Translations under genes and position numbers: made by a program
DNA from: a virus
Virus record (IMG/VR): IMGVR_UViG_3300048836_000042
Location: 1-51,893 of that record
Length of the DNA: 51,893 bases
Direction: 5' to 3' (one strand)
Notes under the pieces: model-generated
What the model was told of the DNA's origin: nothing
Seen by the model: the letters and a program-made list of their open reading frames with translations, nothing else
Databases searched by the model: none
Shown: one piece after another, positions 3,309-45,786 of the stretch
Layout of the letters: each line of letters begins with the position of its first letter
How positions within the stretch are numbered: position 1 is the stretch's first letter

Positions 3309-4247
3309 ATGAATAACTTAATGTACACTCCGCAGAATCTCCAACAGGTGTCACAACTGCCTCTTGGAATGTTTATGCAGGGCCTCGGTCAACTTGAACA
3401 ATTTAAACAAAACGATCAGGCCACTCTTGCTAATGTAATGGCGGAACGCCAACGTGCCTCTGAAACCCACGGTATGAATATGCGCCAAGGGGAAGCCACG
3501 TTGGCAGGAACCATGCTCGGCAATCAGAAAGCACAGATGACGAATGCGGCCACTGCTGCTACTCTTCCCTCTGAGATTCAAGCAAAGATTATCGAAAACA
3601 CCGGGAAGATGGATAAGCACCAGTTTGATATGTGGACTCGTAAAGTTGAGCGTGGTGTGGCCGAGGGAGATCCCCGTATGAAGGCTATCTGGGACAATAT
3701 GCCAGCTATCCGTACAAAACGAGAGGAGGCTGCCCAGGATAAGGAATTAGCCGAAATGGAGGACGCGACTAGGCGCCGGGGTCAAGATATGACGGCTGCT
3801 AGCGCCCGGTATACTGCTGACCAAGCAACGGCTCGTGCGGCGGCTAAGGGTGCGGCTGGTCCGCGTGTTCCTCGTTCTCCACGAGAACTCTATTCCATGT
3901 ATCAGTTTGAGGCCAACAACCCAGATCGCACGCCGGAACAACGGCAAGAAATGCAGATGCTTGCAGACAGGGAACTAGAGAAGATTGTTCAAGAGCAAAT
4001 TCTTAAAGCACAAGCCATGGGTGCCGGAAAGCCCGATGTCGCTGGTATGACACAAGGATCTATTCCAACCCGTCCGATGCCACAAGCGTCCGATATTCTC
4101 CCTAATCGTCAACCGCAACCTGCTGCTCAACCGGAACCAACAAACAAAGGACCAGCAAAAATTAGCACACAAGAAGAATACAACAAGCTTCCTCCTGGGG
4201 CTTTATATGTGCATCCTGATGGTACTGTCCGTAGAAAGCGTGTGTAA
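3309..4247 (+). CDS. Helical internal virion protein
   Basis: Encodes 312 residues beginning right after the preceding stop codon. It is almost entirely helix-favouring and rich in Q, A, M, E and R, with methionine-rich stretches (MNMRQGEATLAGTMLG) and long charged helices at about 130-215. The C-terminus is Pro/Gln-rich followed by a short basic end. Its stop overlaps the start of the 1440-residue virion gene. Position between two internal-protein genes and composition suggest an ejection protein that packs inside the head and helps build a trans-envelope channel. This is inference from context; no named domain is recognised. Confidence 0.55.
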   Translation: MNNLMYTPQNLQQVSQLPLGMFMQGLGQLEQFKQNDQATLANVMAERQRASETHGMNMRQGEATLAGTMLGNQKAQMTNAATAATLPSEIQAKIIENTGKMDKHQFDMWTRKVERGVAEGDPRMKAIWDNMPAIRTKREEAAQDKELAEMEDATRRRGQDMTAASARYTADQATARAAAKGAAGPRVPRSPRELYSMYQFEANNPDRTPEQRQEMQMLADRELEKIVQEQILKAQAMGAGKPDVAGMTQGSIPTRPMPQASDILPNRQPQPAAQPEPTNKGPAKISTQEEYNKLPPGALYVHPDGTVRRKRV

Positions 4248-12051: not shown

Positions 12052-12235
12052 CGTTTTCCCTGTTGTAGTATTCTTCACCAATTAGTTCATCTTTATATTC
12101 TTTAATCTCGGCAACAGCCTCTCTCTCTTGTTGCACTCGCAAGCGAAACCGCACACTCTTTGAATGATTGTGTGACAACACACTGTCGTCTGACTTTTCG
12201 TGTTTACGGTTGGATTTCTTTTCGGATGAACTCAT
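12032..12235 (-). CDS. Small highly charged protein, unknown
   Basis: Encodes 67 residues. It is very hydrophilic and charged (MSSSEKKSNRKHEKSDDS at the N-terminus; EREAVAEIKEYKDELIGEEYY later) and probably helical. It overlaps both the 50-residue gene upstream and the nrdJ start downstream, so it may mainly serve translational coupling of nrdJ. No family is recognised. It is real by frame continuity and packing, with modest certainty. Confidence 0.5.
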   Translation of the reverse strand: MSSSEKKSNRKHEKSDDSVLSHNHSKSVRFRLRVQQEREAVAEIKEYKDELIGEEYYNRENDAGKPI

Positions 12236-16367: not shown

Positions 16368-16914
16368 TTAATTAAAGTTAATCTCTCGCATATCGGCTTT
16401 GTTCGGCCCAACCTTGATCTCACACATGAGAGGCAGTCGTAGGGCATAGTCGAACTCTTCTTTGCAGTAGATGTGTGTGTTCTCCACTGCATCTTTTAAC
16501 ATCACACTAATATTATACACGTTTTTCTCCGGCGTGTCAAGGACCAGGCTATCGTGGATGGTTTGAATAAATTCTCCTTCTAGACCAGACTCTTTAAAGC
16601 GTTTGAAGAACGCAACTCTGGCGAGCTTAACAAGATCAGCACCAAAGGACTGGATAGGGTAGTTCTTGATCTTAGTCTCAGGCCACTTCCATCCGTATGC
16701 TGTTTGCTTGGGAGCAAAGTTAAAGTAGCGTCCTGCCGGTGTTTCGAGGTATCCATTCTCCTTTACAAATTTGATGTCGTTGTAGTGTCCTCTGGCGATC
16801 CCTTTGTATTTCTCGTAGAACTCATCAATGACTCGTTGCCACTGACGCTCTGTAAAGCCAACGTCGATAAAGTCTGAATCCATCGAATAGCCATATGCAG
16901 ATGCTCCGTATAAT
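16368..16914 (-). CDS. DNA polymerase (PolA family), 3' exon
   Basis: This second exon supplies the C-terminal 181 residues of the polymerase. Reading from 16914 it gives LYGASAYGYS right after the intron, i.e. the end of motif B, then helical fingers, a KIKNYPIQSFGADLVKLARVAFF segment and motif C as TIHDSLVLDTP with the catalytic His-Asp. The apparent ATG at 16883 (MDSDFID) is internal and not the true start. Joined in frame to exon 1 through a codon split 2+1 across the intron. Confidence 0.88.
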
Positions 16915-17523
16915 CCTATATGTTAGCTGCATGTTCCCATGCAGAGCAGACTATATCATCACCCATTTGCATGGGTGGGGTGCGCTTCCACAGTCTCCTG
17001 TGTACTCTCTTTCGAGATAGTCGTTACACCTTCAAAGGAGTTCCAACACTTGTGTTCAATTTGATGGCATCGCTTGCACAATACCTCCAGATTGCTATCA
17101 ACATTGTTGGTCCGGTTGTGATCTTTGTGGTGCCCTGCCCAAGTTCCTCGCTTGGAGGCGTCGATATCTGTACCACATCGTTCACAACAATAATTAAGAT
17201 ATTCCAAACGTTCTCTTGCAAGTCGCTGGAATACTGACAAACCATGGCGGTAGCCGGAAGCATCCGGCCCCCTTTTACTGCCCCGCCCCACACCTTTGAA
17301 TAGACCTTTCTTAATAGTCCATTCTTTAATCTGCTGCTTCTGTTTTGCTTTTGCGCAGGGCTTGCAACGCTTCTGGTTTCTTCCAGTACGTTGAAGGACA
17401 ACACCACAGTCTGTACACTGCATAATTATTTTCCTTTGCTTGGCTCGGGATTGTCCGGTCTGGAGTTCCCCCGAATTCACACCCTTCAACTAATACATTA
17501 CTGTATTAGCGGCCTTTATTCAA
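16915..17523 (-). mobile_element. Group I intron in the DNA polymerase gene
   Basis: A 609-nt interruption falls inside polymerase motif B. Exon 1 ends ...AAGCT (last base T, able to form the U-G pair with AAGGC in the intron start). The intron begins TTGAATAAAGGCC, carries GGGGGAACTCCAGACC and GACAATCCCGAGCC, the P4-P6 core seen in T4 td-like introns. Its 3' part has GATGATATAGTCTG (P7 region), a GCATG-GGAA-CATGC hairpin (P9) and ends in G before ATTATACGG. Splicing restores the reading frame exactly. An HNH gene is carried inside. Confidence 0.92.
16959..17423 (-). CDS. Intron-encoded HNH homing endonuclease
   Basis: Encodes 154 residues from MQCTDCG at 17423, with AAAGGAAA upstream. The N-terminus has a zinc ribbon (CTDCG...CKPCA) and basic DNA-binding region. 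The HNH core is CERCG, WAGHHKDHNRTNNVDSNLEVLCKRCHQIEH, with catalytic His and Asn and paired cysteines. It lies wholly within the group I intron and its 3' end is close to the conserved intron core. It presumably cuts intronless polymerase alleles to spread the intron. Confidence 0.9.
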   Translation of the reverse strand: MQCTDCGVVLQRTGRNQKRCKPCAKAKQKQQIKEWTIKKGLFKGVGRGSKRGPDASGYRHGLSVFQRLARERLEYLNYCCERCGTDIDASKRGTWAGHHKDHNRTNNVDSNLEVLCKRCHQIEHKCWNSFEGVTTISKESTQETVEAHPTHANG

Positions 17524-17693
17524 AGCTTGAAGATGAAGATTTTAGCGATTGTTCTAGTCGGTAGTTTGAATCGCTCTTGATTGAGCGCATGGAGATCCAG
17601 TTTGTTAGAAAGTTCTGTGTGTAATACGTCATCTTTGTACCTATCCTCTGCTACGAAGATCTCAAGGCTTTTTACGTCTGCATTAATCAGCAT
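17524..17693 (-). pseudogene. DNA polymerase exon 1, 3' portion after frameshift (motif A)
   Basis: This stretch encodes MLINADVKSLEIFVAED... to LPTRTIAKIFIFKL, the polymerase motif A and start of motif B (T7-like LPTR-x-x-AK-x-F). It is in the +1 frame relative to the upstream polymerase part, which ends prematurely at 17683. The local sequence GGTATGCTGAT would restore the frame if present twice in tandem (giving ..SRYADGMLINAD..). Either a real slip deletion, a sequencing or assembly error, or a recoding site. An ATG at 17693 could allow re-initiation. Confidence 0.8.
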
Positions 17694-18870
17694 ACCTACT
17701 CACGAGTAGCTCGTCTACTTCCACAGGGGTGTTCTGCATGTTAGGCGCAGATGAGCTAAGTCGGCCGGTGATGACCACATTTTGATTATATTGCGGATGG
17801 ATTAGATCATCTTGCCAATTCATGTTTTTAATCTTCCCCTTTATGCTTTCAACCATTTCCACGACCTTGATTTTCCCGGACCTCTCAGCAAGTAGTTCCA
17901 GAAGTACCCCATTTTCTTTCTTACGACTCTTAAGTTGCTTGAGCGTCGGAGCGTCAGTCTGGTAAAAGCGTGTAGTGGCACTTGGATCCTCCGCCGTTTT
18001 CTTAACCTCTGTCCCCTCCAGCGGTTTAAAACGTTGGTCAAACGGAATGGCTGTAGTAAACCATCGTCTTTGAATATAGCTTTGCCCCGCCTTCTCACCA
18101 GTTTTGTATACGGCCGGACTTTCGGTTGCCCATTTAAATTGTATTTCGCCACCATAGAGGAGGGCACTTAGATGATCTCCAGAATCGTAATTGAAAGCAC
18201 CTTCAGGAATCCCATCAGGAAGATAGCCATTAAGCAAACGCTCAATACCGTTAATATCAGATGTGTACTTAGCCACCTTCTCATCTGCTTTAGCAGTATC
18301 AAACTTAACACCAGCCCACTCGGCAGCTTGTAAGGTCTTGAGGTCTTCACCTTCTAACCAGACCAATCTTTTCTGTTTTTCAGAGAGCATTCGCTGCTGT
18401 ACGTCAAAGAGCATTTTTGTAAGCTGCACGTCCCAGCAGTTGTACTCTTTGAGAATGGACAGTGGAATGTTTTCGGTACTGACACCCTGGTTCCAGTATT
18501 CGGCCACCAAGTCTGTTTTAACTGGTAGACCATATTCTTTACAAGTGTCATTAAGCGATGCAAACCTGTGCTCCTGCCCAGTGTAGATAAATTCCGCTAA
18601 TTGGCAGTCCCAGACTTTGTGGTTAGTTCGGAGCTTAATACCCACATTAGCAAGCCAGTGGATGTCGAACTTGATATTAAACCCAATGAGGCAATCAGCA
18701 CGCTCCACTGCCCTACTAAGAAAGGAAATAAAATCAGGGTCAGTGTAATATTTAAACACGATGCCATTACTGCTAAGGCAAGAATAACTGATGAGTCGGT
18801 TAAGCGGATCAAAAGGATGTCCTTTGTTATGTGTGGAAGTTTCAACGTCAAATACTAGGATGTTACTCAT
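17683..18870 (-). CDS. DNA polymerase (PolA family), N-terminal part
   Basis: Encodes 395 residues before a premature stop. The 3'-5' proofreading domain is intact: FDVETSTHN (Exo I, D and E), CLIGFNIKFDIHWL (Exo II) and EYNCWDVQLTKML (Exo III). The thumb and the GRLSSSAPNMQNTP segment follow, then the frame breaks right before motif A. The ATG overlaps the upstream stop (ATGA). With the downstream fragment and 3' exon the full enzyme would be about 635 residues, normal for a T7-like polymerase. As assembled, it would not produce an active polymerase without frame correction. Confidence 0.88.
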   Translation of the reverse strand: MSNILVFDVETSTHNKGHPFDPLNRLISYSCLSSNGIVFKYYTDPDFISFLSRAVERADCLIGFNIKFDIHWLANVGIKLRTNHKVWDCQLAEFIYTGQEHRFASLNDTCKEYGLPVKTDLVAEYWNQGVSTENIPLSILKEYNCWDVQLTKMLFDVQQRMLSEKQKRLVWLEGEDLKTLQAAEWAGVKFDTAKADEKVAKYTSDINGIERLLNGYLPDGIPEGAFNYDSGDHLSALLYGGEIQFKWATESPAVYKTGEKAGQSYIQRRWFTTAIPFDQRFKPLEGTEVKKTAEDPSATTRFYQTDAPTLKQLKSRKKENGVLLELLAERSGKIKVVEMVESIKGKIKNMNWQDDLIHPQYNQNVVITGRLSSSAPNMQNTPVEVDELLVSRYAD

Positions 18871-20726: not shown

Positions 20727-20924
20727 TATATTTCACCCTAAGAAATGACAAACCCCCCCTTACCCCCCGTTGTTTCTAAGCAACAGTTGGAATTACGTGT
20801 CAAGCACGAAAGCTAAAGAAGCCAATAGTTTAGCACACTTTAGGTACTCTTGTCAAGCTTTTTTTTCTTCTGAAGCTCTGGAGGGGGCTCCGGAGGGGCC
20901 ATTCCTAGGGGAGCACAACTCACA
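20727..20924 (-). other. Intergenic leader of the helicase gene
   Basis: About 200 bp without a gene between thyX and the helicase. It holds the promoter described separately, a second TTGACA-like box (20798-20803), GC-rich inverted segments around 20880-20905 and, on the transcribed strand, two runs of six and seven G close to the helicase ribosome site (20749-20769). No ORF is convincing. Confidence 0.6.
20827..20856 (-). promoter_or_regulatory. Sigma-70-like promoter for the helicase-polymerase block
   Basis: On the minus strand TTGACA (20851-20856) is followed after 18 bp by TAAACT (20827-20832) with an upstream TG. It lies in the only sizeable gap of the replication block and reads toward the helicase. 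A second TTGACA at 20798-20803 has a poorer -10. Confidence 0.65.
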
Positions 20925-23369: not shown

Positions 23370-23674
23370 TACAATCCCTTAATAAAAATTCCAACAAGAT
23401 TACCTGTTTTAGTGGAGGTAAAGGATTTTACTAATTCCCACTTGTTTTCTTCAAGAATACGAACTTGTGCGGTGTTACTTAGCTGTGCTGTGCATAAACA
23501 GATATCATACCCTAAATTTTCCGCTTCTACAAGTCTTTCTGCGTGAGCAACTCTCCCCAATCCTTTACCCCGTTGTCCCGAAGGAACAAAAACAGAATGA
23601 AACACTGCAACTTGGCTACATCCCGGAAGATTATCAATCTCACCAATGACATCCCCATGATTAAAGCGCATCAC
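23369..23674 (-). CDS. GNAT-family N-acetyltransferase
   Basis: Encodes 101 residues. Motif A of GNAT enzymes is clear: VFHSVFVPSGQRGKGLGRVAHAERL (acetyl-CoA pyrophosphate loop Q-R-G-K-G-L-G), followed by ICLCTAQLSNTAQVRILEENKWELVKSF with the typical beta-4/helix arrangement. It is a compact form. It adjoins the ATP-grasp gene by a 4-nt overlap, consistent with predicted phage operons in which an acetyltransferase acts with amide ligases. Substrate unknown. Confidence 0.85.
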   Translation of the reverse strand: MMRFNHGDVIGEIDNLPGCSQVAVFHSVFVPSGQRGKGLGRVAHAERLVEAENLGYDICLCTAQLSNTAQVRILEENKWELVKSFTSTKTGNLVGIFIKGL

Positions 23675-24393
23675 TTACTCCTCAGATTATACATGTTAAT
23701 CAGTGCTTCTGCGTATTTTTCAAGCGTTGTACCCATGAGCCCCGGCCTCGAATTGACTTCCAGGACATAGCATTGATCCCGCTTCTCATTGTAGATGAGA
23801 TCCACAGCGCCATACTCATAGCCACATGCCGCAACTGCACGTATAGCCAGATCGGCAGCGCCATTAGGAGGATTAATCCCATCACGACAATAGACATAAC
23901 CATTGTTAACATTGCGAATACGAGTATCACGAGTGGACTCAAATCCGTGCTTCTTTCTTTTCTGCTGTACATCAATTACTTCTCCTCCGAAGACATGGAA
24001 GCGGTACTCTGATTTCTTGGGGATGTATTCCGTATACAGAGGTGCCATTGGTACGTCCACAATGCCCGGCTCAAACTGAACAATCCCCCGGCCATTCGTC
24101 GAGTTAACAAGGGTGCGTGCAAATACAGTTTTAGCAGAAAGATGCTCAATATCCGCAGCAGAAATGCAAAACTTAGGACAAGATACCGCTGCAAGTTGGA
24201 AGCGATGGAATTGTTCAACTTTATCCAGCGCCTGTTGAGTTACTTGGAAGAATGATCGACCTTGCTTTGCAGTTCGCCGCCGATAAACAGAATTAACTAC
24301 CCGCTCCTTGAGGGCGGATTGTAGTGCTTTGGCAAACTTACTACCAGGGGGGTTGACAACGATATAGAAGGGTTTGGTGTACATTAGTGGCAT
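23671..24393 (-). CDS. ATP-grasp ligase
   Basis: Encodes 240 residues. ATP-grasp signatures: ARTLVNSTNGRGIVQFEPG, PLYTEYIPKKSEYRFHVFGGEVIDVQQKRKK and the metal-binding AVDLIYNEKRDQCYVLEVNSRPGL (D...E-x-N). These enzymes join a carboxylate to an amine through an acyl-phosphate. It overlaps the class II amidotransferase gene, so amide nitrogen could be supplied locally. Substrate unknown; peptide or cell-wall-like amidation is predicted for such phage clusters. Confidence 0.88.
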   Translation of the reverse strand: MPLMYTKPFYIVVNPPGSKFAKALQSALKERVVNSVYRRRTAKQGRSFFQVTQQALDKVEQFHRFQLAAVSCPKFCISAADIEHLSAKTVFARTLVNSTNGRGIVQFEPGIVDVPMAPLYTEYIPKKSEYRFHVFGGEVIDVQQKRKKHGFESTRDTRIRNVNNGYVYCRDGINPPNGAADLAIRAVAACGYEYGAVDLIYNEKRDQCYVLEVNSRPGLMGTTLEKYAEALINMYNLRSK

Positions 24394-25688
24394 TCAAGTT
24401 GTTTAACTTCCGTTGTGAGGACAGGAACAGGGTGCGTACAGAAGAGAGTCACTAGATTGTATTTCTCTCCCTCTGTTGGAGTAACTGTGTGGTGAACCAC
24501 TCCGCTTGTTGGTTCTACTTGATACAAGGAAACACTGGTGAAGTTCAAGGCTTCGATCTCCGTTACTCTTTGCAGCCGCAAATAGACTAGCGGGCTAGGC
24601 TTGCTGGGATCTGACGTAACCATAGAACCATACACAAGCCATTGTAGATTCTTTGGATCGTCATACAACTGCACATAGTCTGTGAACTCAACCAGAACTG
24701 TGTCGGGTTTGTTGACGCGGAACAGCTCCTTTATCTCGTCGGCTTCTGCGTCGCTTACCCGGAACTCCTCAAATTTATTTTCTATAATGTAATCGTATAG
24801 AGTCTTCTCGTTGTAGCTCCGGGTGGAATGCTCTACTGCTTGCCTAACCGTGTTAAGGTCCACTGGAGGACTGTAGTCATGGCGGTATGAGCCCGTTCCC
24901 ATGTACTGCCTGTAGTTTTGCCAGTGGGTGAGATCCTCGTCGTATTCTGTGCTGGCAGGAGCGTGTTGGTGCTGAAATTTATAGTCCAGCGGACCCACCT
25001 CGTATTTCCATTGACGCCCGTCAATTGTAAAGGTGTGCAGCTCACCCGGGGTAAGTAGCTGAACGTGGTCCTTAAGCTTCACCTTAGCCCTGCTTGCGGC
25101 ATAGAGGATCGTTTCACACTCGGATGCAAACAGATATCCGCCGTCCGTGGTCTCAACAATCCACAGGGGCCGCTCGTTATTCCGAATCAAGTGCAGTGAT
25201 TTCGTCTTGACATTATACCACACCAGAGCATAAGCGGCATTAATCTTTTGTAGAGCCTCCTCGATGTTGTCGTGGTCCGCAAGAACATGTGCAATTGCTT
25301 CGGAGTCCACCTCGACATCCTTATGGTGCTTATGGCTGCCGATATACGTGCCATTCTGCACCAGCACAATCTTGTCCTCTACCCAGAAAGGGTGGGCATT
25401 AGTGTCATTAACTGTGCCCCGAGTAGCAGCCCGGTTATGCCCCACCATGAACATCCCGGTAGACCAGCCCTTTCGCTCTAGGGCCTGGTATTCCCTATGC
25501 TGAATGAAATCAGGACCATGGATAGCAGCCTTGCGAATGTGCACATTGCTGTTGTTCTCCACAAGAAATACTCCGGTGCTGTCCCATCCACGCTGGGTAT
25601 CAAGAAACAGCATATCTTTGAACATCTTCTGCTCATTGGTGCTGAAACCATTCTGGAAACTAGCAACCATTCCAACGATGCCACACAT
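24384..25688 (-). CDS. Class II glutamine amidotransferase
   Basis: Encodes 434 residues. The N-terminal ~220 residues are a GlmS/PurF-type Ntn glutaminase: catalytic Cys2 (MCGIVGMV), RGWDSTGVFLV, GHNRAATRGTVNDTNAHPF, VLVQNGTYIG and DSEAIAHVLADHD. It releases ammonia from glutamine. The remaining ~210 residues match no synthase domain I know, so ammonia is probably passed to the adjacent ATP-grasp or amidoligase. Start Met must be removed to expose Cys. Overlaps both neighbours by 1-10 nt. Confidence 0.9.
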   Translation of the reverse strand: MCGIVGMVASFQNGFSTNEQKMFKDMLFLDTQRGWDSTGVFLVENNSNVHIRKAAIHGPDFIQHREYQALERKGWSTGMFMVGHNRAATRGTVNDTNAHPFWVEDKIVLVQNGTYIGSHKHHKDVEVDSEAIAHVLADHDNIEEALQKINAAYALVWYNVKTKSLHLIRNNERPLWIVETTDGGYLFASECETILYAASRAKVKLKDHVQLLTPGELHTFTIDGRQWKYEVGPLDYKFQHQHAPASTEYDEDLTHWQNYRQYMGTGSYRHDYSPPVDLNTVRQAVEHSTRSYNEKTLYDYIIENKFEEFRVSDAEADEIKELFRVNKPDTVLVEFTDYVQLYDDPKNLQWLVYGSMVTSDPSKPSPLVYLRLQRVTEIEALNFTSVSLYQVEPTSGVVHHTVTPTEGEKYNLVTLFCTHPVPVLTTEVKQLECH

Positions 25689-26680
25689 TACAGCTCTACC
25701 TCCAAATTATTTACGATAGCTTGGTCATGGTCGAGGAAGTCGGCCGGTTCCGGCGCTGGCGGAACCACATCCTCGAACAGCTCGGGGTAATTTGCCCTAA
25801 GCTCATTAATCATCTGCGTGGTGCTTCTACTGACCTGCACCCCTGGTTTAATCTTGTTATTCAACAGGGCGTACTTCAGATTCAAGACACCGTTCTCCAT
25901 CAAAGCCGCCACATCTGCTCCTTGTAGGCATTCTGCATCTTCTCGGAAAACATCCCGCATGACACTAAAGTAGTGTGAGGTAGTGTTCAAGTCAATGAAA
26001 AGATTCTTCACCTGTTCAAAGGGAAGATTCCGGGCCAGATGAAAAATGTGCCCAATTAGACGGCACCACTCATAGATGAGTTCCTTGTTGTTGGTTCCGG
26101 GGAGATGCCGCCACTCAATGGTGCCCAGCGAAGTTACCGGAAGCAGGTTTAGGGCAGTGTATTTCTGCCAGTCATGGAACACTACGTCCTCCTTGTTTAG
26201 CATCTTCGTAATGGAGCGGTAATTCAATTGTGTTTCCGCCCAGGGAACACAGAAGATATTACGTCGCCGATCCATACCGGCATAGTTGAACAGCACCCCC
26301 TCAAACACCTGATAAATCATGCTAATAGAGGCTAGCTGTTCCACAGTCAGATCCTGCACATTGGTGTGGACATGGACTGAGCATCGCTCGCTGTAATTAG
26401 CGGGGCCCAACCAGTCATTGTGGGAAAAGAATGTGTCCAGAGCCCACACTAGGTTGCTGTAGGTCATGGGCTTCGTAATGAATTCCAATCCGCTATTGCG
26501 GAGAGAACCATCTTCCGTTACGTCTAGCCCCGGAGTCTGCATGTCGGGCCGGCAGCCCTCAATCTCAAGCTCGACTCCGTAGATAAGGGATGGGTCCGGG
26601 GGATTTCGCCGGGTCGCTTTGCTTGTTTTCCAGGGAGATACCGGCTTTAGCCCGTAGCGCATACAGATGGTGTCAGGCAT
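25688..26680 (-). CDS. Amidoligase family protein (COOH-NH2 ligase)
   Basis: Encodes 330 residues. Glutamine-synthetase-like amidoligase signatures: YGVELEIEG (metal Glu residues), EDGSLRNSGLEFITKPMTY, CSVHVHTNVQDL (H-x-H) and GTIEWRHLPGTNN (E..R). These phage and bacterial ligases are predicted to form amide bonds on peptides or proteins. Shares a stop/start overlap with the glutaminase gene, fitting one complex. A Pro/Ala-rich C-terminal end may be a tether. Confidence 0.85.
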   Translation of the reverse strand: MPDTICMRYGLKPVSPWKTSKATRRNPPDPSLIYGVELEIEGCRPDMQTPGLDVTEDGSLRNSGLEFITKPMTYSNLVWALDTFFSHNDWLGPANYSERCSVHVHTNVQDLTVEQLASISMIYQVFEGVLFNYAGMDRRRNIFCVPWAETQLNYRSITKMLNKEDVVFHDWQKYTALNLLPVTSLGTIEWRHLPGTNNKELIYEWCRLIGHIFHLARNLPFEQVKNLFIDLNTTSHYFSVMRDVFREDAECLQGADVAALMENGVLNLKYALLNNKIKPGVQVSRSTTQMINELRANYPELFEDVVPPAPEPADFLDHDQAIVNNLEVEL

Positions 26681-27287
26681 TCAGCTCCTCCACACGGTAC
26701 GGGAATCCGTTCCGATGAATAACATCATTAAGTTCCTGTGTAACTTTGAAAGAGGGGTCAATTGAGAGTACCCTCGTGGTGTGATCGACCGTGCCGATCT
26801 CTGTCGCATAGAAGTAGACCGCGCCCTGAGTCATTGCGAAGTGTTTAGACAAGGCAACTGTTGGAGCAGTGGGATCGACATCGGCATACTGGTACGTCTG
26901 GGGACTTCCAAAGATACCTGCAAGAAGCCGCAGAGACAATTTCTGTGGAATCAAACCGAGAGCAGTCAGCTTCTGGATACTGGTATTATTTCGGCTAATA
27001 CCCCTTTTCCACTGTCGTGCTGGAATTCGACTCATGTAGTATACCGAGGAATCCTCTCCGGTGAAGTATCCCCTGTCCACCTGAATAAACTCAAACATCA
27101 CATTAGAGTCAATGTTTGCGTGGAAGAGCATACCATCGTCATCCGTATTGAAGTACACAGCATCCCGGGTATTCTCCCGGATGTAGATCAGACGCTTTTG
27201 ATTATCCGATTTAATTAGGAACCCGTAGGTGTCCAGATAGCGAGGACCGAAGTCCCGCATGTTCTCGTGCGTGTATGTCTCAAGCAT
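26673..27287 (-). CDS. Hypothetical protein of the amidoligase island
   Basis: Encodes 204 residues from MLETYTHENMRDFG at 27287; that ATG overlaps the stop of the downstream-strand neighbour (ATGCTTGA), indicating coupling. Aromatic, beta-rich (AVYFNTDDDGMLFHANIDSNVMFEFIQVDRGYF). Lies between two amidoligase genes, so it is a candidate substrate, adaptor or modifying subunit of the system. No family recognised. Confidence 0.65.
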   Translation of the reverse strand: MLETYTHENMRDFGPRYLDTYGFLIKSDNQKRLIYIRENTRDAVYFNTDDDGMLFHANIDSNVMFEFIQVDRGYFTGEDSSVYYMSRIPARQWKRGISRNNTSIQKLTALGLIPQKLSLRLLAGIFGSPQTYQYADVDPTAPTVALSKHFAMTQGAVYFYATEIGTVDHTTRVLSIDPSFKVTQELNDVIHRNGFPYRVEELNA

Positions 27288-28077
27288 GTTGTGGCATAGG
27301 CAGTTGAAGTGACTCAATCAGCAGGCGGGCTCCCGCCTTGTCATTGTTGTTGATAACACCTTGAATATCGTCGGCAAGAACATCCACATTAATAGTCTTA
27401 TTATGCCATGCCTCCATAGCAGCGGAAGTTGCGTCCCAAATCCAGGCAGTCAACACAGGATCAAGCACCCAGAAGTTGGAAAGACTGCGGTACTCCACTC
27501 CATACGGTTTGATTCGGCAGGCGCCAGCTTTACCATACAGATTCTTACGCAGATCCCCCTCATCCAACAGGGTACTCGGTACACCGAGGAATAGATCAAG
27601 GTATTTAACAAAGTTAAAGGCTTGCTTACGGGACTTGAACTTGTGTCCAACGTGGACGTGTCCACCGCAGGTACGCAGTCGCCTATCCGTAGCAGCAGGT
27701 CGCGGATTAGCCTTACCGTCAAGCCAAGCATTGAAGTCTGGGTCACACCCGAACTGCATTGCGGCAGGATGCAGCAACTCCTGCATTGGGAAGGAAACAG
27801 CCGAGGTACTAGCGAACTTGTACCCTTTCTGCTGCACCATATCTGTCAGGTAGGACATCGCCCGATTAATGGTATTAACGAACTGCTCCTTGTCCTGGGA
27901 AGGGGGCACATTGTACTCCAGTGCCACGTTGTCCTCTTGCACAGCGAACCCATCCCCGATAGGGAGGGGCATCGGGTTGCTCTTGGAGCCTCCGATACGT
28001 CCACACGCTGCGATGTAAGCACCAGCAGCATCTTGCAGGAACAACTCGGGATCAGCACCAATTACGAATTTACGCAT
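27280..28077 (-). CDS. COOH-NH2 ligase, phiEco32-like type 2
   Basis: Encodes 265 residues. Signatures: FVIGADPELFL, VQEDNVALEYNVPP (metal Glu/Asn), TCGGHVHVGH (H-x-H) and PYGVEYRSLSNFWV (E-x-R), as in the phage phiEco32-like COOH-NH2 ligase type 2 family. Together with 25688-26680 the phage carries two distinct amidoligases, suggesting sequential additions to a carrier. AAGGA ribosome site. Confidence 0.88.
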   Translation of the reverse strand: MRKFVIGADPELFLQDAAGAYIAACGRIGGSKSNPMPLPIGDGFAVQEDNVALEYNVPPSQDKEQFVNTINRAMSYLTDMVQQKGYKFASTSAVSFPMQELLHPAAMQFGCDPDFNAWLDGKANPRPAATDRRLRTCGGHVHVGHKFKSRKQAFNFVKYLDLFLGVPSTLLDEGDLRKNLYGKAGACRIKPYGVEYRSLSNFWVLDPVLTAWIWDATSAAMEAWHNKTINVDVLADDIQGVINNNDKAGARLLIESLQLPMPQHA

Positions 28078-28078
28078 A

Positions 28079-28519
28079 TTAATCCTTGTAATGGAAAATG
28101 AACGCCTTCAAGCAATGGTAGACCTTGCGCTCTGGGTAGTTGCTATTCCCAGCCCAGTCTGTCTCAAACACCTTGTACTTCCAAAGATCAAACTCTTGCA
28201 TGAATCTCTTGAACGTAGCCTCTTGGATATTAGTGAGAATAAATATGTGTGTCTCGTTATCTTTCTTGGCATCCACATACGCGCTTTTGAAGCCGGCTTT
28301 ACTCATCGCCAGCAGGTCGTCATAGGTTTTTTTTCCCCCCGGATGTGTACGTTCGTATGCTTCCGTATAGGTTTCGCATAGCCTCTCAAAAGATTCGCAC
28401 CCGAATATCTTCCCACCATTAATCCGAGCATAGCTATCGTATTCCTCTTGAGTGGTGCAGTACCACCCTGCATCAGGAATAGTCCGAAGAGCATCAAAGT
28501 GACAGCTCTTAATCTTCAT
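28079..28519 (-). CDS. Hypothetical protein
   Basis: Encodes 146 residues, helical and charged with many Tyr, Lys and Asp (YTEAYERTHPGGKKTYDDLLAMSKAGFKSAYVDAKKDNETHIFILTN). No motif recognised. In the amidoligase island, one base from the COOH-NH2 ligase gene, so it could be part of the pathway. Confidence 0.6.
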   Translation of the reverse strand: MKIKSCHFDALRTIPDAGWYCTTQEEYDSYARINGGKIFGCESFERLCETYTEAYERTHPGGKKTYDDLLAMSKAGFKSAYVDAKKDNETHIFILTNIQEATFKRFMQEFDLWKYKVFETDWAGNSNYPERKVYHCLKAFIFHYKD

Positions 28520-28784
28520 ACTCTCTCCGATTCAGTTTGAAGTTAAACCAGACACCATCAATTTCAAAAGACTGGATTTTTTGATACGAGGTGCTTCGTA
28601 CTTTGGTTTTATGGGCATTAATCGCCAGAGTAATTCCCTTGTTCCTGCGATCTATGGTGAGATCCTCCACTAGCTGGCTGCCACAGCATTCCGCAATCCT
28701 CCCCCCTAAACAGTATTCGGCGTCCGGCTTTGTGAGAGCAGGCTGGATCTCCCAGTTTTTGAGGAACTCAATCAACTGTGGCAT
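28509..28784 (-). CDS. Hypothetical protein
   Basis: Encodes 91 residues (MPQLIEFLKNWEIQPALTKPDAEYCLGG...). Alternating hydrophobic/charged beta strands (SFEIDGVWFNFKLNRREYED) at the C-terminus. Contains a Cys pair (ECCG). It overlaps the C26-type gene upstream and the next gene downstream. Function unknown. Confidence 0.55.
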   Translation of the reverse strand: MPQLIEFLKNWEIQPALTKPDAEYCLGGRIAECCGSQLVEDLTIDRRNKGITLAINAHKTKVRSTSYQKIQSFEIDGVWFNFKLNRREYED

Positions 28785-29415
28785 ATTGTTGCAGCTTTTC
28801 GTTAACGTAGTTAATCACATACCGATTGGCAGGAGTATTTTCGTCCATCATCTCCGGATGCCATTGAATGGCAAAGCCTTTGAGTTGTGGGAAGTACACG
28901 AACTCTGGTTCGATAGGCATCTCCACATCGACATCCACATCGTAATGCACAGCACTCCGGATTCGATCCGACCAAGCAATCATTTCATGCTCAACTTCAA
29001 ACGGATACAACATCTGATGGTGGATGCTGTTGACATTAATCCGTTTATTGTCATAAGTGAGCACGTCGTGCATCCCCATGTGATTGTCAACGTGTTGGAT
29101 GAGATAGCCTCCAGCCAGGGCACACAACATCTGCGCCCCACGGCACACACCAATGATGGGAATACCGATCTCTTTGGCACGTCGCATCAGGTCCCACTCG
29201 ATCCTGTCACGTTGACTGAGCGTGTCCATCGCGTGAGTGTATCGTGATCGACCTCGATTGTATAGGGCGGGGCTGATGTCACCACCACCCCAGACAATTA
29301 GAACGTCGTCTTCTCGCAACAGATCCGGGTTACTGCTGTGTGCAGTATCAATAACTCCATTAATCAGATGGAAGGGATGGAAATCATCGTAAATAGCGGA
29401 GAAAAGGCGAATCAT
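28768..29415 (-). CDS. Class I glutamine-amidotransferase-like / peptidase C26
   Basis: Encodes 215 residues. The triad is visible: nucleophile Cys in GIPIIGVCRGAQMLCALAGG, then HHQML and QWHPE (His-Glu). WGGGDISPALY with RDRIEWDLMRRAKE matches PuuD-like gamma-glutamyl hydrolases. It may cleave gamma-glutamyl amides, i.e. an editing or removal enzyme for the ligases nearby, or act as a glutaminase. Confidence 0.88.
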   Translation of the reverse strand: MIRLFSAIYDDFHPFHLINGVIDTAHSSNPDLLREDDVLIVWGGGDISPALYNRGRSRYTHAMDTLSQRDRIEWDLMRRAKEIGIPIIGVCRGAQMLCALAGGYLIQHVDNHMGMHDVLTYDNKRINVNSIHHQMLYPFEVEHEMIAWSDRIRSAVHYDVDVDVEMPIEPEFVYFPQLKGFAIQWHPEMMDENTPANRYVINYVNEKLQQYATVD

Positions 29416-32896: not shown

Positions 32897-32981
32897 TGGT
32901 GCGACCGATGGGACTCGAACCCATACGGATTACTCCGGCAGATTTTAAGTCTGCTGTGGCTACCAATTACACCACGGTCGC
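32897..32981 (-). tRNA. tRNA-Leu (UAA) with encoded CCA
   Basis: Cloverleaf on the minus strand: acceptor GCGACCG/CGGTCGC, discriminator A and encoded CCA; anticodon stem GCAGA/TCTGC with loop CTTAAAA (anticodon TAA); long variable arm CGGA-GTAA-TCCG as expected for tRNA-Leu; T-arm ATGGG-TTCGAGT-CCCAT. It reads UUA/UUG codons, useful for the AT-richer late genes. Lies in the early operon. Confidence 0.95.
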
Positions 32982-33840: not shown

Positions 33841-34470
33841 TCAGACCTCGTTCGCCTTGTTGCTGATCTCGACAAGAGTCTCGTACAGCCGCTGCTCCGT
33901 GGCGTCAGCATCCTGACTCGGGGCATTGTTCTTGAGAAACTTGGCAAGCTTCACCGCCAGGGTATCCGCCTTTCGGCCGGCCTTGGACTGCGAGAACGTC
34001 CGAGCATAGGCCACGAGCGTGTCATAGCCCGCATGTTCCAACATCTCCTTGTCGGTCTGGGCGTGCTTGCTCTTGTCGTCCAGGTTCTGGTTCACGTAGT
34101 CGCGCCAACCCTCGACACTGCCACCGCTGTTGAATGCATTGGCGATGGTTTGAAGCTTCGACACTTCGACAGACATGGAAGCCGTGTTCACCTTCGCGAA
34201 CTTCTCACCGAAGCCGGCCTCCTTCTGCGCCTTCGTCATCGATGCCTTGTCCGCCTTGATGGTGTTCAGGAACACGGTGCGGGCTTCCACTGTCATGTCG
34301 ATGATGCGGATAGCGAAGGCACGCCACTGACTGCGGCCACCCTTCGCATACGCCATGACTTCCGCCGCCAGCATGGTGCCGGCGAGCCTGTCATCCCTGG
34401 ATTCCACCCGAAGCGGTGCCTTCGTCATCGGACGGGAGCCAGTCTCGGCAATCACTTGCATCGAATGCAT
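33841..34470 (-). CDS. Early hypothetical protein, GC-rich
   Basis: Encodes 209 residues; AGGAG before the ATG, with two hairpins in the leader. Highly helical and charged (EARTVFLNTIKADKASMTKAQKEAGFGEKFAKV; KAGRKADTLAVKLAKFLKNNAPSQDADATEQRLYETL), without transmembrane or catalytic signatures. First full-size gene after the early promoter, so it is probably abundant and expressed first; a DNA-binding or host-modifying role is possible but unproven. Confidence 0.75.
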   Translation of the reverse strand: MHSMQVIAETGSRPMTKAPLRVESRDDRLAGTMLAAEVMAYAKGGRSQWRAFAIRIIDMTVEARTVFLNTIKADKASMTKAQKEAGFGEKFAKVNTASMSVEVSKLQTIANAFNSGGSVEGWRDYVNQNLDDKSKHAQTDKEMLEHAGYDTLVAYARTFSQSKAGRKADTLAVKLAKFLKNNAPSQDADATEQRLYETLVEISNKANEV

Positions 34471-34485
34471 TTCAATCTCCTAGGT

Positions 34486-34531
34486 TAATACGCTCGACAT
34501 TGAACGTATTAGATAAGAGATTAATCTTATC
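34486..34531 (-). promoter_or_regulatory. Two leader hairpins before the first early gene
   Basis: Minus-strand leader contains GATAAG...CTTATC (34512-34531) followed by TAATACG...CGTATTA (34486-34511 span) and then the AGGAG ribosome site. Such paired hairpins may protect the mRNA 5' part or mark an RNase processing site. Confidence 0.5.
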
Positions 34532-34570
34532 AATCGGACACTCTAAGGATCTAGTCACAGTCTCACGACG

Positions 34571-34720
34571 TTAAAAGTGTTTCCATGTGCGTGCTCGCCT
34601 AGCATGGTGCCACCCATGCATGTATCCGATAAAGCTGTGACCGATTTTTGTAGTGCCGTCCACGTTTCTAACTAACCCTGCTGCTCGCATCCTCCAGAAC
34701 ATTCTACCGGGCAGAGTCAT
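34571..34720 (-). CDS. Small basic early protein (49 aa)
   Basis: MTLPGRMFWRMRAAGLVRN... to ARRARTWKHF, start 34720 with GGGAG eight bases upstream. Very basic and aromatic with HGWHHARRARTW near the end. It is the first ORF after the strong promoter at 34919, the usual place for host-takeover peptides. Too short for standard calling; evidence is ribosome site, promoter and composition. Confidence 0.55.
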   Translation of the reverse strand: MTLPGRMFWRMRAAGLVRNVDGTTKIGHSFIGYMHGWHHARRARTWKHF

Positions 34721-34918
34721 GACATATGCTCCCACATAGTCACGTAACTAACCTTCCGTTTGTCCTATGGTATCGCGCATTACCTAGGTTAATCTTCTCG
34801 CTACTAGGTCAACGTCTAGCGTATAGCTAGTATCACAGTATGCGTTACCCGTGTGGTTGCATTCGCGGCCTTCGCCACGCGGGAATACATCAATTAAGTT
34901 TTTAAAGAGCGTGCTCAC
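34721..34918 (-). other. Early transcript 5' leader
   Basis: About 200 nt between the early promoter and the first small ORF. Contains CTAGCTATACGCTAG-type partial palindromes and CCTAGGTTAAT-like blocks (also seen at 34479-34489). A 24-codon ORF is present but lacks a ribosome site. No convincing gene. Confidence 0.5.
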
Positions 34919-34947
34919 ACTATAATCGAACTGAAAACCCGAGTCAA
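34919..34947 (-). promoter_or_regulatory. Strong early sigma-70 promoter
   Basis: Minus strand TTGACT (34942-34947), 17-bp spacer, TATAGT (34919-34924). Start expected near 34912. It reads into the small basic ORF and the whole leftward early arm. Confidence 0.85.
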
Positions 34948-35113
34948 GCGCAGGGGCATTACCACCGAGCGGGTATGCGCCGCTACCTGTGAACCCTGCC
35001 AACTAGGACAGTTCGATTAACCGTGTTAAAGAGCGTTGATATTTAATGTCATCTCTGACGGTTCCCATTATGCACACTAATGTGTTGTTTGGACGCCACA
35101 AATGGTAAGAATT

Positions 35114-35288
35114 TGTAACAGCGTAAGTGTGTACTCACTAACCTGGTCTGCGCCCGCGTCGCGCGATAGTCCAGAACGCGCGTAACGCACGCGCCCAGGC
35201 GCGCTAGGCGTGCCATGATACCACGTAGGCCAGGGGATGCAATAGGGGTTTACCCTGGGAATGTAACAGTGTGTGTGTTCTGTAACAG
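35114..35288. repeat. Three TGTAACAG direct repeats near the origin
   Basis: TGTAACAG occurs at 35114-35121, 35262-35269 and 35281-35288 in the same orientation, close to the DnaA boxes. They may be iteron-like binding sites. A GC-rich block of CGCG repeats lies between (35150-35205). Confidence 0.5.
35215..35242 (-). promoter_or_regulatory. Possible weak leftward promoter by the origin
   Basis: TTGCAT (35237-35242), 16-bp spacer, TATCAT with an upstream TGG (35215-35220). Could prime or activate the origin or add early transcription. Weak match. Confidence 0.3.
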
Positions 35289-35296
35289 GATGTAGC

Positions 35297-35371
35297 TTAT
35301 CCACAGGCTTGATAACATGTGAACAACCTGTGGATTCACCTATGAAAACGGGTGTGGATAACATGTGAACA
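35297..35371. other. Probable replication origin with DnaA boxes
   Basis: A perfect DnaA box TTATCCACA (35297-35305), an inverted perfect box TGTGGATAA (35353-35361) and a near-match TGTGGATT (35329-35336). The 15-mer GATAACATGTGAACA is repeated at 35311-35325 and 35357-35371. Located in the non-coding control region, with TGTAACAG repeats beside it. Suggests host DnaA helps start phage replication. Confidence 0.7.
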
Positions 35372-35797
35372 GCCGCAGGCTGGGCAGATAACTTTTCCCT
35401 AGGGGTAGGGTACCTGGACGCTAGAAAAACGCTCTACGAGCCTTCTAGGGGCTTTGCTGGGGGTGCTCACATGGTGGGATGAAAGGGCACAGGATGGAAT
35501 GGCACGACGCTTGCTAGTGCCACTTGAGTCAACTCTGACGAGTTGGCATGGGCCTTGCTTGGGGGGCCTTATACGGTACCGGGTGGGGTATATACCCCCC
35601 TAGGTATCTCTATCCCTGGAGACGGTAGCACCTATTCATTTGATAAATGTTGGTTTATCATGCTATAAAATATAGCAATTAATCGACTCTGTCCCCAATT
35701 TCAAGGGGGTGTGGGGGGAAAATTCTTGTGTTGGTGATGGGGTGTAATACACCATACTAAAATTCTTATAGTTTTTACACAATGGTCCTATAGGTCT
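35372..35797. other. Non-coding control region with palindromes
   Basis: No convincing gene. Perfect palindromic sites: GGGGTATATACCCC (35585-35598), TGATAAA/TTTATCA (35641-35660), TGCTATA/TATAGCA (35661-35677, directly adjacent) and GGTGT/ACACC (35741-35753). These are candidate operators or RNA hairpins. G-rich tracts lie at 35705-35718. Confidence 0.55.
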
Positions 35798-35834
35798 AAA
35801 AAGAAAACCCCGGGGGTCGCTGACGCTCCCGGGG
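35798..35834 (-). terminator. Rho-independent terminator ending the structured RNA
   Basis: Minus strand: CCCCGGG arm (35828-35834 side) pairs with CCCGGGG (35808-35814 side) around a short GCGTCAGCG-type loop, followed by TTTTCTTTTT (35798-35807). It faces leftward and has no protein gene upstream of it, so it ends a short transcript. Confidence 0.9.
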
Positions 35835-36139
35835 CTATAGACTTCTTATCGAAGATAAGACTAACTTTTATTGTTTTTATTATACATCACACGTAACACG
35901 TAGTGTTACAGTAGATATATTACATATATCACCCTTGGTGAAGACAAAGGTTAGCCATCCCACAATAAAGAGGATTAACCTTCATCTGCATCAAGGACAT
36001 CACCCTCGGAGCCAGACTGTACCTTGGACTGTTTTCACCACACGCTCTCAGGACACGTTGCACATCTGTGGATTTCCCGGTGGTATGTGCTTATTCAAGA
36101 CTGGAACCACCCGTTGAGTCCCCGTTCTTCCAGTCTATG
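35798..36139 (-). ncRNA. Highly structured ~340-nt non-coding RNA
   Basis: Own consensus promoter (36146-36174) and own terminator (35798-35834), with no convincing ORF between (best is 20 codons). Predicted hairpins in order: GACTGGAA/TTCCAGTC (36099-36135), GCACAT/ATGTGC (36060-36090), AAGGTTA-ATCC/GGAT-TAACCTT (35947-35982), TCACC/GGTGA, then three perfect 7-pair stems with 3-nt loops (35914-35930, 35893-35909, 35844-35860) and the terminator. A loop GGTGG may pair with CCACC as a pseudoknot. No known family recognised. Confidence 0.75.
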
Positions 36140-36145
36140 TCTAAT

Positions 36146-36174
36146 AGTATACCACAAATTTAGTAAAAAGTCAA
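36146..36174 (-). promoter_or_regulatory. Strong promoter of the structured RNA
   Basis: Minus strand TTGACT (36169-36174), 17-bp spacer, TATACT (36146-36151) preceded by TGG (extended -10). Start near 36139. Divergent from the late promoter across an A/T-tract spacer. Confidence 0.88.
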
Positions 36175-36224
36175 GGGGTTTTATAAAAAAAGTTAAAAAA
36201 AGTTGCATTTTTATAAAAAAAGAC

Positions 36225-36253
36225 TTGACAAAAACAAAAAAGTGTGATATACT
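36225..36253 (+). promoter_or_regulatory. Strong sigma-70 promoter of the late arm
   Basis: TTGACA (36225-36230), 17-bp spacer, TATACT (36248-36253) with TGA just upstream (extended -10), after A-tracts that may act as UP elements or bends. Drives terminase and downstream genes. Its consensus nature implies early availability unless repressed. Confidence 0.9.
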
Positions 36254-36274
36254 ATATGTATAGGATGAAAATTT

Positions 36275-36799
36275 ATGTCTGAAGTCACAAAATTACCAAA
36301 CGGTTTTTACCCAGAAATCCCGATGGAGAAGAAAATGGAGCTGATCAAAGCTTACGTTTCTCTTGGGAATATGCGGTTAGCCTCCGAAATGGTTGGTATC
36401 AACTATGAGACCGCTCGGTATTGGCGTAAAACCAAAGATTGGTGGCCTAAACTCATGGAGGAGGCCAAGCAGGAGCAGCGCCAGGAACTTCAAGGGCGTC
36501 TTGGTAAGATTACAGAAACCGCTCTTTCGATCATGGAAGATCGGCTTAAGAATGGTGAGTACATTCTGAACATAAAAACCGGAGATATTATCAGAAAACC
36601 CGTGGGCCTGCGGGACGCAAACCAGGCCGCCAATAATCTGATGACTCAAGCCACCAAGCTGGAAGAAATGAATAGTAAGTCGCATACAGTGGATGAGTCT
36701 ACAGCAGAAGTTCTTAAGCAACTGGCCAATGAGTTCGCTAAGTTTGCTAAGAAGAAAGTTAATACTGAAATTATAGACGTGGAAGTCAAGGAGATTTGA
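36275..36799 (+). CDS. terS: Terminase small subunit
   Basis: Encodes 174 residues. Helix-turn-helix near residues 25-50 (IKAYVSLGNMRLASEMVGINYETARYWRKT) for binding packaging sites, a long charged middle helix and an oligomerising C-terminal region with basic/acidic end. First gene of the late arm, 1.4 kb before the large subunit. Assignment from HTH, size and position. Confidence 0.75.
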   Translation: MSEVTKLPNGFYPEIPMEKKMELIKAYVSLGNMRLASEMVGINYETARYWRKTKDWWPKLMEEAKQEQRQELQGRLGKITETALSIMEDRLKNGEYILNIKTGDIIRKPVGLRDANQAANNLMTQATKLEEMNSKSHTVDESTAEVLKQLANEFAKFAKKKVNTEIIDVEVKEI

Positions 36800-45453: not shown

Positions 45454-45786
45454 ATGGGAAATGTATTTGTTAAATCTGGACATGTGCGGGATATTCTTTC
45501 TGATGCCACAACTACCGTTACTGGAGCATGGCAATTTAAAGACGCACCAAAGGTAGCTATTCAAGCAACGGTAGTTGGTACTGGGGCTGTCACTGCTACA
45601 ATTGTAATCGAAGCGTCTAATGACGGCACGTATGCCTTGGCAACAGTACTTGGCACAATTACTCTGTCTGGGACTACAAGCGACTCAGATGGATTCACTA
45701 CGGATGCTCCTTGGAAATTTATCCGGGCGAGAATTACAGCTATTTCAGGTACAAGTGCCACCGTTAACGTGACAGCGAGCGCATAA
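45454..45786 (+). CDS. Head-region structural protein
   Basis: Encodes 110 residues, Thr/Val/Ala-rich and all beta (VAIQATVVGTGAVTATIVIEASNDGTYALATVLGTITLSG), like a small Ig-like decoration protein. Stop overlaps the tail-spike start. Confidence 0.6.
   Translation: MGNVFVKSGHVRDILSDATTTVTGAWQFKDAPKVAIQATVVGTGAVTATIVIEASNDGTYALATVLGTITLSGTTSDSDGFTTDAPWKFIRARITAISGTSATVNVTASA

Follow-up and report, generated by a model that had tools for sequence, protein, structure and literature searches.

A conserved structured RNA family behind the leftward promoter in the early/late gap of related uncultured phages

What does a phage make from a near-consensus promoter that reads into DNA without a gene? 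The question is raised by IMG/VR virus record IMGVR_UViG_3300048836_000042, all 51,893 bases of which were analysed here and are called the window. In the window a 1.8-kb non-coding gap (34471-36274) separates an early/DNA-metabolism module, read leftward, from a late module that is read rightward and begins with terS and terL; the gap is bordered on its far side by the first leftward early gene, gene A (209 aa, 33841-34470, minus strand), and on its near side by the terminase small subunit gene terS (36275-36799, plus strand). The leftward promoter lies at 36146-36174 on the minus strand, with TTGACT at 36174, a 17-nt spacer and TATACT ending at 36146, the latter preceded by TGG as an extended -10. 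The promoter of the terS/late operon, TTGACA-17-TATACT (36225-36253, plus strand), lies next to it and points the other way, and a near-consensus counterpart of the leftward promoter is found at the same spot, likewise back to back with the terS promoter, in most of the TerL relatives that were read. The site at 36174 is one of the two top promoter-like sites within 34-38 kb, while the number of promoter matches in that interval (6 versus 5.8 expected) is not above chance. A second leftward promoter-like site, TTGACT-17-TATAGT (34919-34947, minus strand), is located ahead of the early operon. A first-pass annotation of the sequence had described just such a promoter, divergent from the late one and reading into about 340 nt with no convincing ORF, and our analysis bore this out: the minus strand of the span contains no convincing ORF, and a protein-coding reading was ruled out as no conserved ORF is present.

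When the window RNA was used as a query, neither BLAST nor single-sequence nhmmer found a homologue in phages, plasmids or 66 related loci. Homologues surfaced when the equivalent slot upstream of terS was read in TerL relatives. Two of them, L017 and L016, have structured RNAs in that slot that are homologous to each other (nhmmer E 2e-16), and L078 (the same as L092) and L090 were added through a motif scan and a second TerL search. RNAalifold predicted 55 pairs for the set of four relatives, 14 of them with double changes; the four-relative counts, for which the structure was drawn by hand upon a MAFFT alignment, give the same picture as the five-member result. A covariance model, R1, built from these four relatives with the window excluded, found the window at 36135-35921 on the minus strand (E 1.4e-8, model positions 1-239 of 239). 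This was its only match in the 52-kb window, and over 0.99 Mb of related loci nothing else rose above noise. A sequence-only profile made from the same four relatives had its top match at the same place (E 5e-4). In the five-member alignment, which was fitted to the model and hence leans toward it, 91% of the pair cells hold standard pairs (80.0 +- 1.5 after shuffling, 34-46% after sliding), 18 pairs show double changes (7.2 +- 2.0 shuffled) and the covariation score is 0.434 (0.200 +- 0.027 shuffled); the observed paired fraction, double-change count or covariation score was reached in 0 of 500 shuffles. Covariation in relatives, which had been named as the support to look for, is thus present, and we regard it as practically certain that the family is real: a conserved structured RNA of about 220 nt, found in at least five related uncultured phages and starting near the predicted start of transcription from the strong leftward promoter.

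Because of the R1 match and the five-member covariation, the conserved fold is assigned to the first ~218 nt of the transcript (core of about 218-220 nt, 35921-36140, minus strand). The first-pass annotation had treated all 342 nt as one structured RNA; the fold holds for 36140-35921, but the whole span is not conserved. Folding of the 344-nt transcript as a single sequence gave z = -2.4, with 3 of 100 shuffles equally stable, and the minimum free energy fold of the window RNA differs from the conserved fold. L060 and other slots with stable folds were not family members by either model, and a 15.9-bit match in L173 was taken as chance.

The family is absent from the resources that were searched. 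A scan of 35.7-36.3 kb against Rfam 15 yielded no match at the gathering threshold, including to 6S, tmRNA, GOLLD, ROOL and the group I intron, in agreement with the earlier judgement that the RNA does not resemble 6S, tmRNA, GOLLD or ROOL. Permissive Rfam searches of the window, L017 and L078 gave only chance-level matches to unrelated families, and a limited search of the open-access literature found no description of the family. The homologues, the covariation and the lack of an Rfam match therefore back the claim that this is a structured phage RNA, previously undescribed, that has a promoter of its own. As a kind, non-coding RNA in the early/late intergenic region of phages is already known. 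GOLLD and ROOL are likewise structured non-coding phage RNAs without an assigned function, but they are about 660-800+ nt long and often lie near tRNA islands (PMC12286853), whereas the core described here is about 220 nt, lies beside terS and has no covariance-model match to either. The Vibrio phage ICP1 also has a non-coding RNA in an ORF-less gap, an abundant one, but it is about 800 nt long and located at the lysis cluster, and the likeness is one of kind (PMC7567579).

The core begins with three helices. P1 (AGACUGGAA/UUCCAGUCU, 36098-36136) closes a 21-nt loop and shows double changes at 4 pairs across the family; in four members it begins near the predicted start of transcription, in the window a few nt behind it, and in L016 an extra hairpin lies ahead of P1. 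P2 (GCACAU/AUGUGC, loop ACCA..GGG..CCAC, 36060-36090) also has double changes at 4 pairs, and most of its pairs change between members while the loop keeps ACYA..GGG. P3 (ACGU/GCGU, loop ..GAGA, 36042-36058) is paired in all cells, two pairs having double changes. The 3' part of the P2 loop may also pair with the strand that follows P3; such a pseudoknot is plausible, though short of proof. In the window it would join CCAC (~36071-36068) to GUGG (~36041-36038), as picked out by eye; equivalent pairings fit L017 (AUCACC/GGUGAU), L078 (UCUCC/GGGGA) and L090 (UUCCC/GGGGA), and those of L016 and the window are shorter. In the four relatives 94% of the pseudoknot cells are paired and one pair has a double change, which taken alone is not significant. 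By eye we also noticed that the loops of P1 and P2 could form a kissing interaction, GGUGG with CCACC in the window RNA. Besides its helices, the family keeps conserved unpaired stretches.

The 3' half of the core is occupied by P7 (35930-35998), a long irregular hairpin of -26 kcal/mol with UCCUUG..CAAGGG as its outer part and AAGGUUA/UAACCUU plus AUCC/GGAU as its inner part. A direct repeat of 8-12 nt accompanies it in all five RNAs, one copy before P7 and the other at its base, identical within each RNA and different between phages: AGGGUGAU in the window, AGGGUAAUG in L078, AGGAAGAUGUAU in L016, AGGGUCAUA in L017 and AGGUUGAAG in L090 (shuffle P from 0 to 0.015 for each RNA). In the window, copy 1 (35999-36006) pairs locally with CCUU to form P6, and copy 2 (35928-35935) forms the base of P7 with that same strand, CCUUG. 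Across the family the hairpin of copy 1 with the intervening strand gives a segment energy of -6 to -10 kcal/mol, and the pairing of copy 2 with that strand, as P7, -26 to -34 kcal/mol. Since the two copies compete for one strand and P7 is the more stable, the computed energies suggest that a transient local hairpin, P6, is replaced by P7 as transcription proceeds. The P6 pairing alone is not significant by covariation, and this, together with the like result for the pseudoknot, counts against the origin-transcript reading favoured below.

The last ~120 nt of the window RNA form a variable 3' extension outside the conserved core. It contains three perfect 7-bp hairpins with 3-nt loops on the minus strand, namely GATATAT-GTA-ATATATC (35914-35930), GTAACAC-TAC-GTGTTAC (35893-35909) and TCTTATC-TTC-GATAAGA (35844-35860); 0.014 such hairpins would be expected in the stretch, and more than one never occurred in 5000 resamples. 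These stems, to which the first-pass annotation had drawn attention, are present as described but belong to the variable part and not to the conserved fold. In a similar manner, the transcript's own intrinsic terminator, CCCCGGGAGCGTCAGCGACCCCCGGGG then TTTTCTTTTT (about 35836-35798, minus strand), follows the core in the window and has a counterpart in L017; immediately behind the core of L016, L078 or L090 no such terminator was seen. The stem of the window terminator contains GGGAGC-GUCA-GCGACC, a hairpin motif with tandem G-A mismatches that recurs there in relatives. Hairpins of this type (GGGAGC-loop-GCGACC or GCGAGC-loop-GCGAGC) were seen upstream of terS in L005, L014, L022, L027, L059, L061 and others; across the group they would be part of the leftward transcript, and their outer pairs appear to covary. 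Relatives without the core (for example L097, L105, L109 and L117) have tandem AT-rich hairpins in the same slot: one or two long perfect hairpins right after the leftward promoter, mostly with CCCTTAAGGG-like tips and with strong folding z-scores (to -9).

All five members have the RNA immediately after the leftward promoter that lies upstream of terS, within the gap that parts the divergent early and late modules. Two scans of 2.9 million IMG/VR viral contigs with core motifs returned only the four known member contigs, one strict pattern found no copy in 85,000 bacterial and archaeal genomes, and no copy beyond the known members was found elsewhere in whole related records (sets of 33 and 38, many of them fragments). 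A TerL tree was made of 49 phages, those whose slot could be read and some added kin. Four of the RNA-positive phages form one clade, and the fifth, the window, is nested elsewhere among RNA-negative phages; well supported branches force two gains or losses. As the RNA-positive phages sit in two separate places of the tree, the patchy distribution indicates transfer or repeated loss. The window's nearest phages, L004 and L005, are without the RNA, and so is the nearest cultured phage, Alcaligenes phage vB_Af_QDWS535 (TerL 54%), which has the leftward promoter and a C tract; both features persist in relatives that lack the RNA. Because of the patchiness the RNA is not needed for packaging, and a phi29-like packaging RNA is ruled out. 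A cos or pac end was rejected as well, since related contigs, as read from the loci, break here at scattered points and not at one site.

The slot also holds small ORFs, in L016 (545-1051, minus strand), L021 (about 3365-3908, minus), L026 (4423-4737, minus) and L117; by eye they are HTH- or HNH-like, and that of L026 has a weak PDDEXK-like Pfam match. The slot thus appears to take cargo, and L016 combines the RNA with an ORF that is preceded by a promoter of its own.

The structured RNA occupies the promoter-proximal part of the gap and is read toward the early module. Just downstream of it lies a conserved block on the minus strand, TATAG..AAGAATTTTAGTATGGTGTATTAC..TTTTCCCCCCACACCCCC (35690-35775); 45 of 111 related loci have its C tract upstream of terL, and many of the remainder stop short of this position. 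Further on are two perfect DnaA boxes, TTATCCACA, at 35297 (plus) and 35353-35361 (minus; together 35297-35361), the only two perfect ones in the 52-kb contig. The cumulative GC skew turns at ~35 kb, where it is confounded by gene direction. The order of elements is therefore leftward promoter, non-coding stretch, C-tract block, DnaA boxes, second leftward promoter and early gene, and the promoter-like sites at 36174 and 34947 flank a non-coding region with no ORF of note between them. This plan resembles that of the c2-type phages of Lactococcus (Ceduovirus), in which the replication origin lies in the intergenic region between divergent early and late modules, between the promoters PE1 and PE2, and the transcript of the first of the two early promoters, PE1-T, is non-coding (PMC7150918). 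The length and the sequence/structure of PE1-T define the c2 ori type, of which there are several, so that unrelated types occupy the same place in related phages (PMC7150918). The host groups are unrelated and the likeness rests on plan, not on sequence homology; moreover, the window phage has a conserved structured RNA family with covariation, and its origin is putative. On the C-tract block, the sole DnaA boxes, the GC skew turn and the c2-like plan, we consider the early/late gap a probable phage replication origin.

Because the gap resembles an origin and its plan matches that of c2, we favour, tentatively and at somewhat less than even chances, the reading that the RNA is a structured accessory domain at the 5' end of an origin transcript like the c2 PE1 transcript. 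The leftward transcript would then be an origin transcript, in which P1-P3 fold first, with the probable pseudoknot, followed by the local hairpin P6 and then the more stable P7. The fold would decide whether the transcript is stabilised, stops before the conserved AT/C-tract block or enters it, and its fate would in turn set the time at which replication starts. The folding order, an effect on priming and any partner protein are parts of this scheme that we infer. Several findings count against it. In the window and L017 transcription may end before the conserved block, as a terminator separates it from the RNA; the RNA is patchy, being absent from L004 and L005; the slot holds ORFs in four relatives, as a cargo site would; and DnaA boxes were not seen at the equivalent place in L004, L059, L060 or the Alcaligenes phage. 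A bolder version, that co-transcriptional strand exchange, in which the 8-12 nt repeat competes for one strand, defines a new class of phage RNA that licenses origin replication in lytic phages of Proteobacteria, appears rather unlikely.

Almost as likely as the origin role is a trans-acting cargo RNA that would serve in regulation, counter-defence or the take-over of the host and would occupy a variable slot, expressed early, next to the origin, since the RNA is patchy, the slot takes ORFs and a terminator intervenes in two members, which would give a discrete RNA. Its location would then reflect the strong promoter and not a role in replication, and the conserved unpaired stretches resemble a binding surface. 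On the other hand, the RNA was never found outside the spot upstream of terS in the records searched, three of the five members are without a terminator directly after the core, and complementarity to the phage genome is not above chance. No partner gene co-occurs with it except one 110-aa ORF (45454-45786), common to the window and L017 and absent from the RNA-negative genomes compared; an RNA ligase gene (PF09414, 30912-31421, minus strand), considered as a partner, was in none of the other 17 related records searched. Antisense control of the phage's own genes was rejected because the longest complementarity, 12-13 nt, equals that in shuffled sequence, and the functions as a regulator sponge or DNA mimic that the first-pass annotation had suggested are likewise without support. 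Its third proposal, control of the early/late switch, agrees with the position in the divergent early/late gap only, and the context points rather to a replication origin.

HK022 put RNAs are structured RNAs at the start of an early phage transcript, as is the RNA described here, but the put sites are smaller, about 65-75 nt. A larger element of that kind, acting as nascent RNA on RNA polymerase by antitermination or attenuation of the leftward early transcript, would suit a strongly structured RNA that starts near +1 of an early promoter, has competing helices that share one strand and, in two members, stands ahead of a terminator. We consider it improbable: a second promoter past the origin serves the early operon, the first early gene is more than 1 kb of non-coding DNA away from the RNA, and the plan is unchanged in relatives that lack the RNA. 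A purely DNA-level role, with the three perfect 17-bp palindromes and the adjoining origin-like block as operator or origin DNA and a leftward RNA that does nothing by itself, is most improbable: the palindromes lie outside the conserved core, and compensatory changes over the 220-nt promoter-read fold, which include G-U pairs, together with the start of that fold near the transcription start, fit RNA better than protein-binding DNA.

What stands in either case is a structured RNA family that is backed by covariation and missing from Rfam. Acting in cis, as in the favoured origin-transcript reading, it would represent RNA-based control of a phage replication origin; acting in trans, it would be a compact phage RNA effector. 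Its fixed position in a phage group that is widespread and has a cultured relative makes its role testable.

Several other features of the window genome were recorded. A group I intron (16927-17533, Rfam Intron_gpI) with an HNH ORF inside it (16959-17489) splits the family A DNA polymerase gene (16368-18870, minus strand), and an intein in the ribonucleotide reductase large subunit (9466-12081, minus) has a domain of the LAGLIDADG homing endonuclease type (Pfam). A tRNA-Leu is located at 32897-32981. The region 23671-29415 (minus) encodes a cluster of a phiEco32-like COOH-NH2 ligase, an amidoligase, glutamine amidotransferases and an ATP-grasp enzyme, and the COOH-NH2 ligase/amidoligase cluster is also present in the Alcaligenes phage. 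Finally, an isolated GGGGGGTAAGGGGGGG tract lies at 20750-20770 (minus) in an intergenic gap adjoining the helicase gene.
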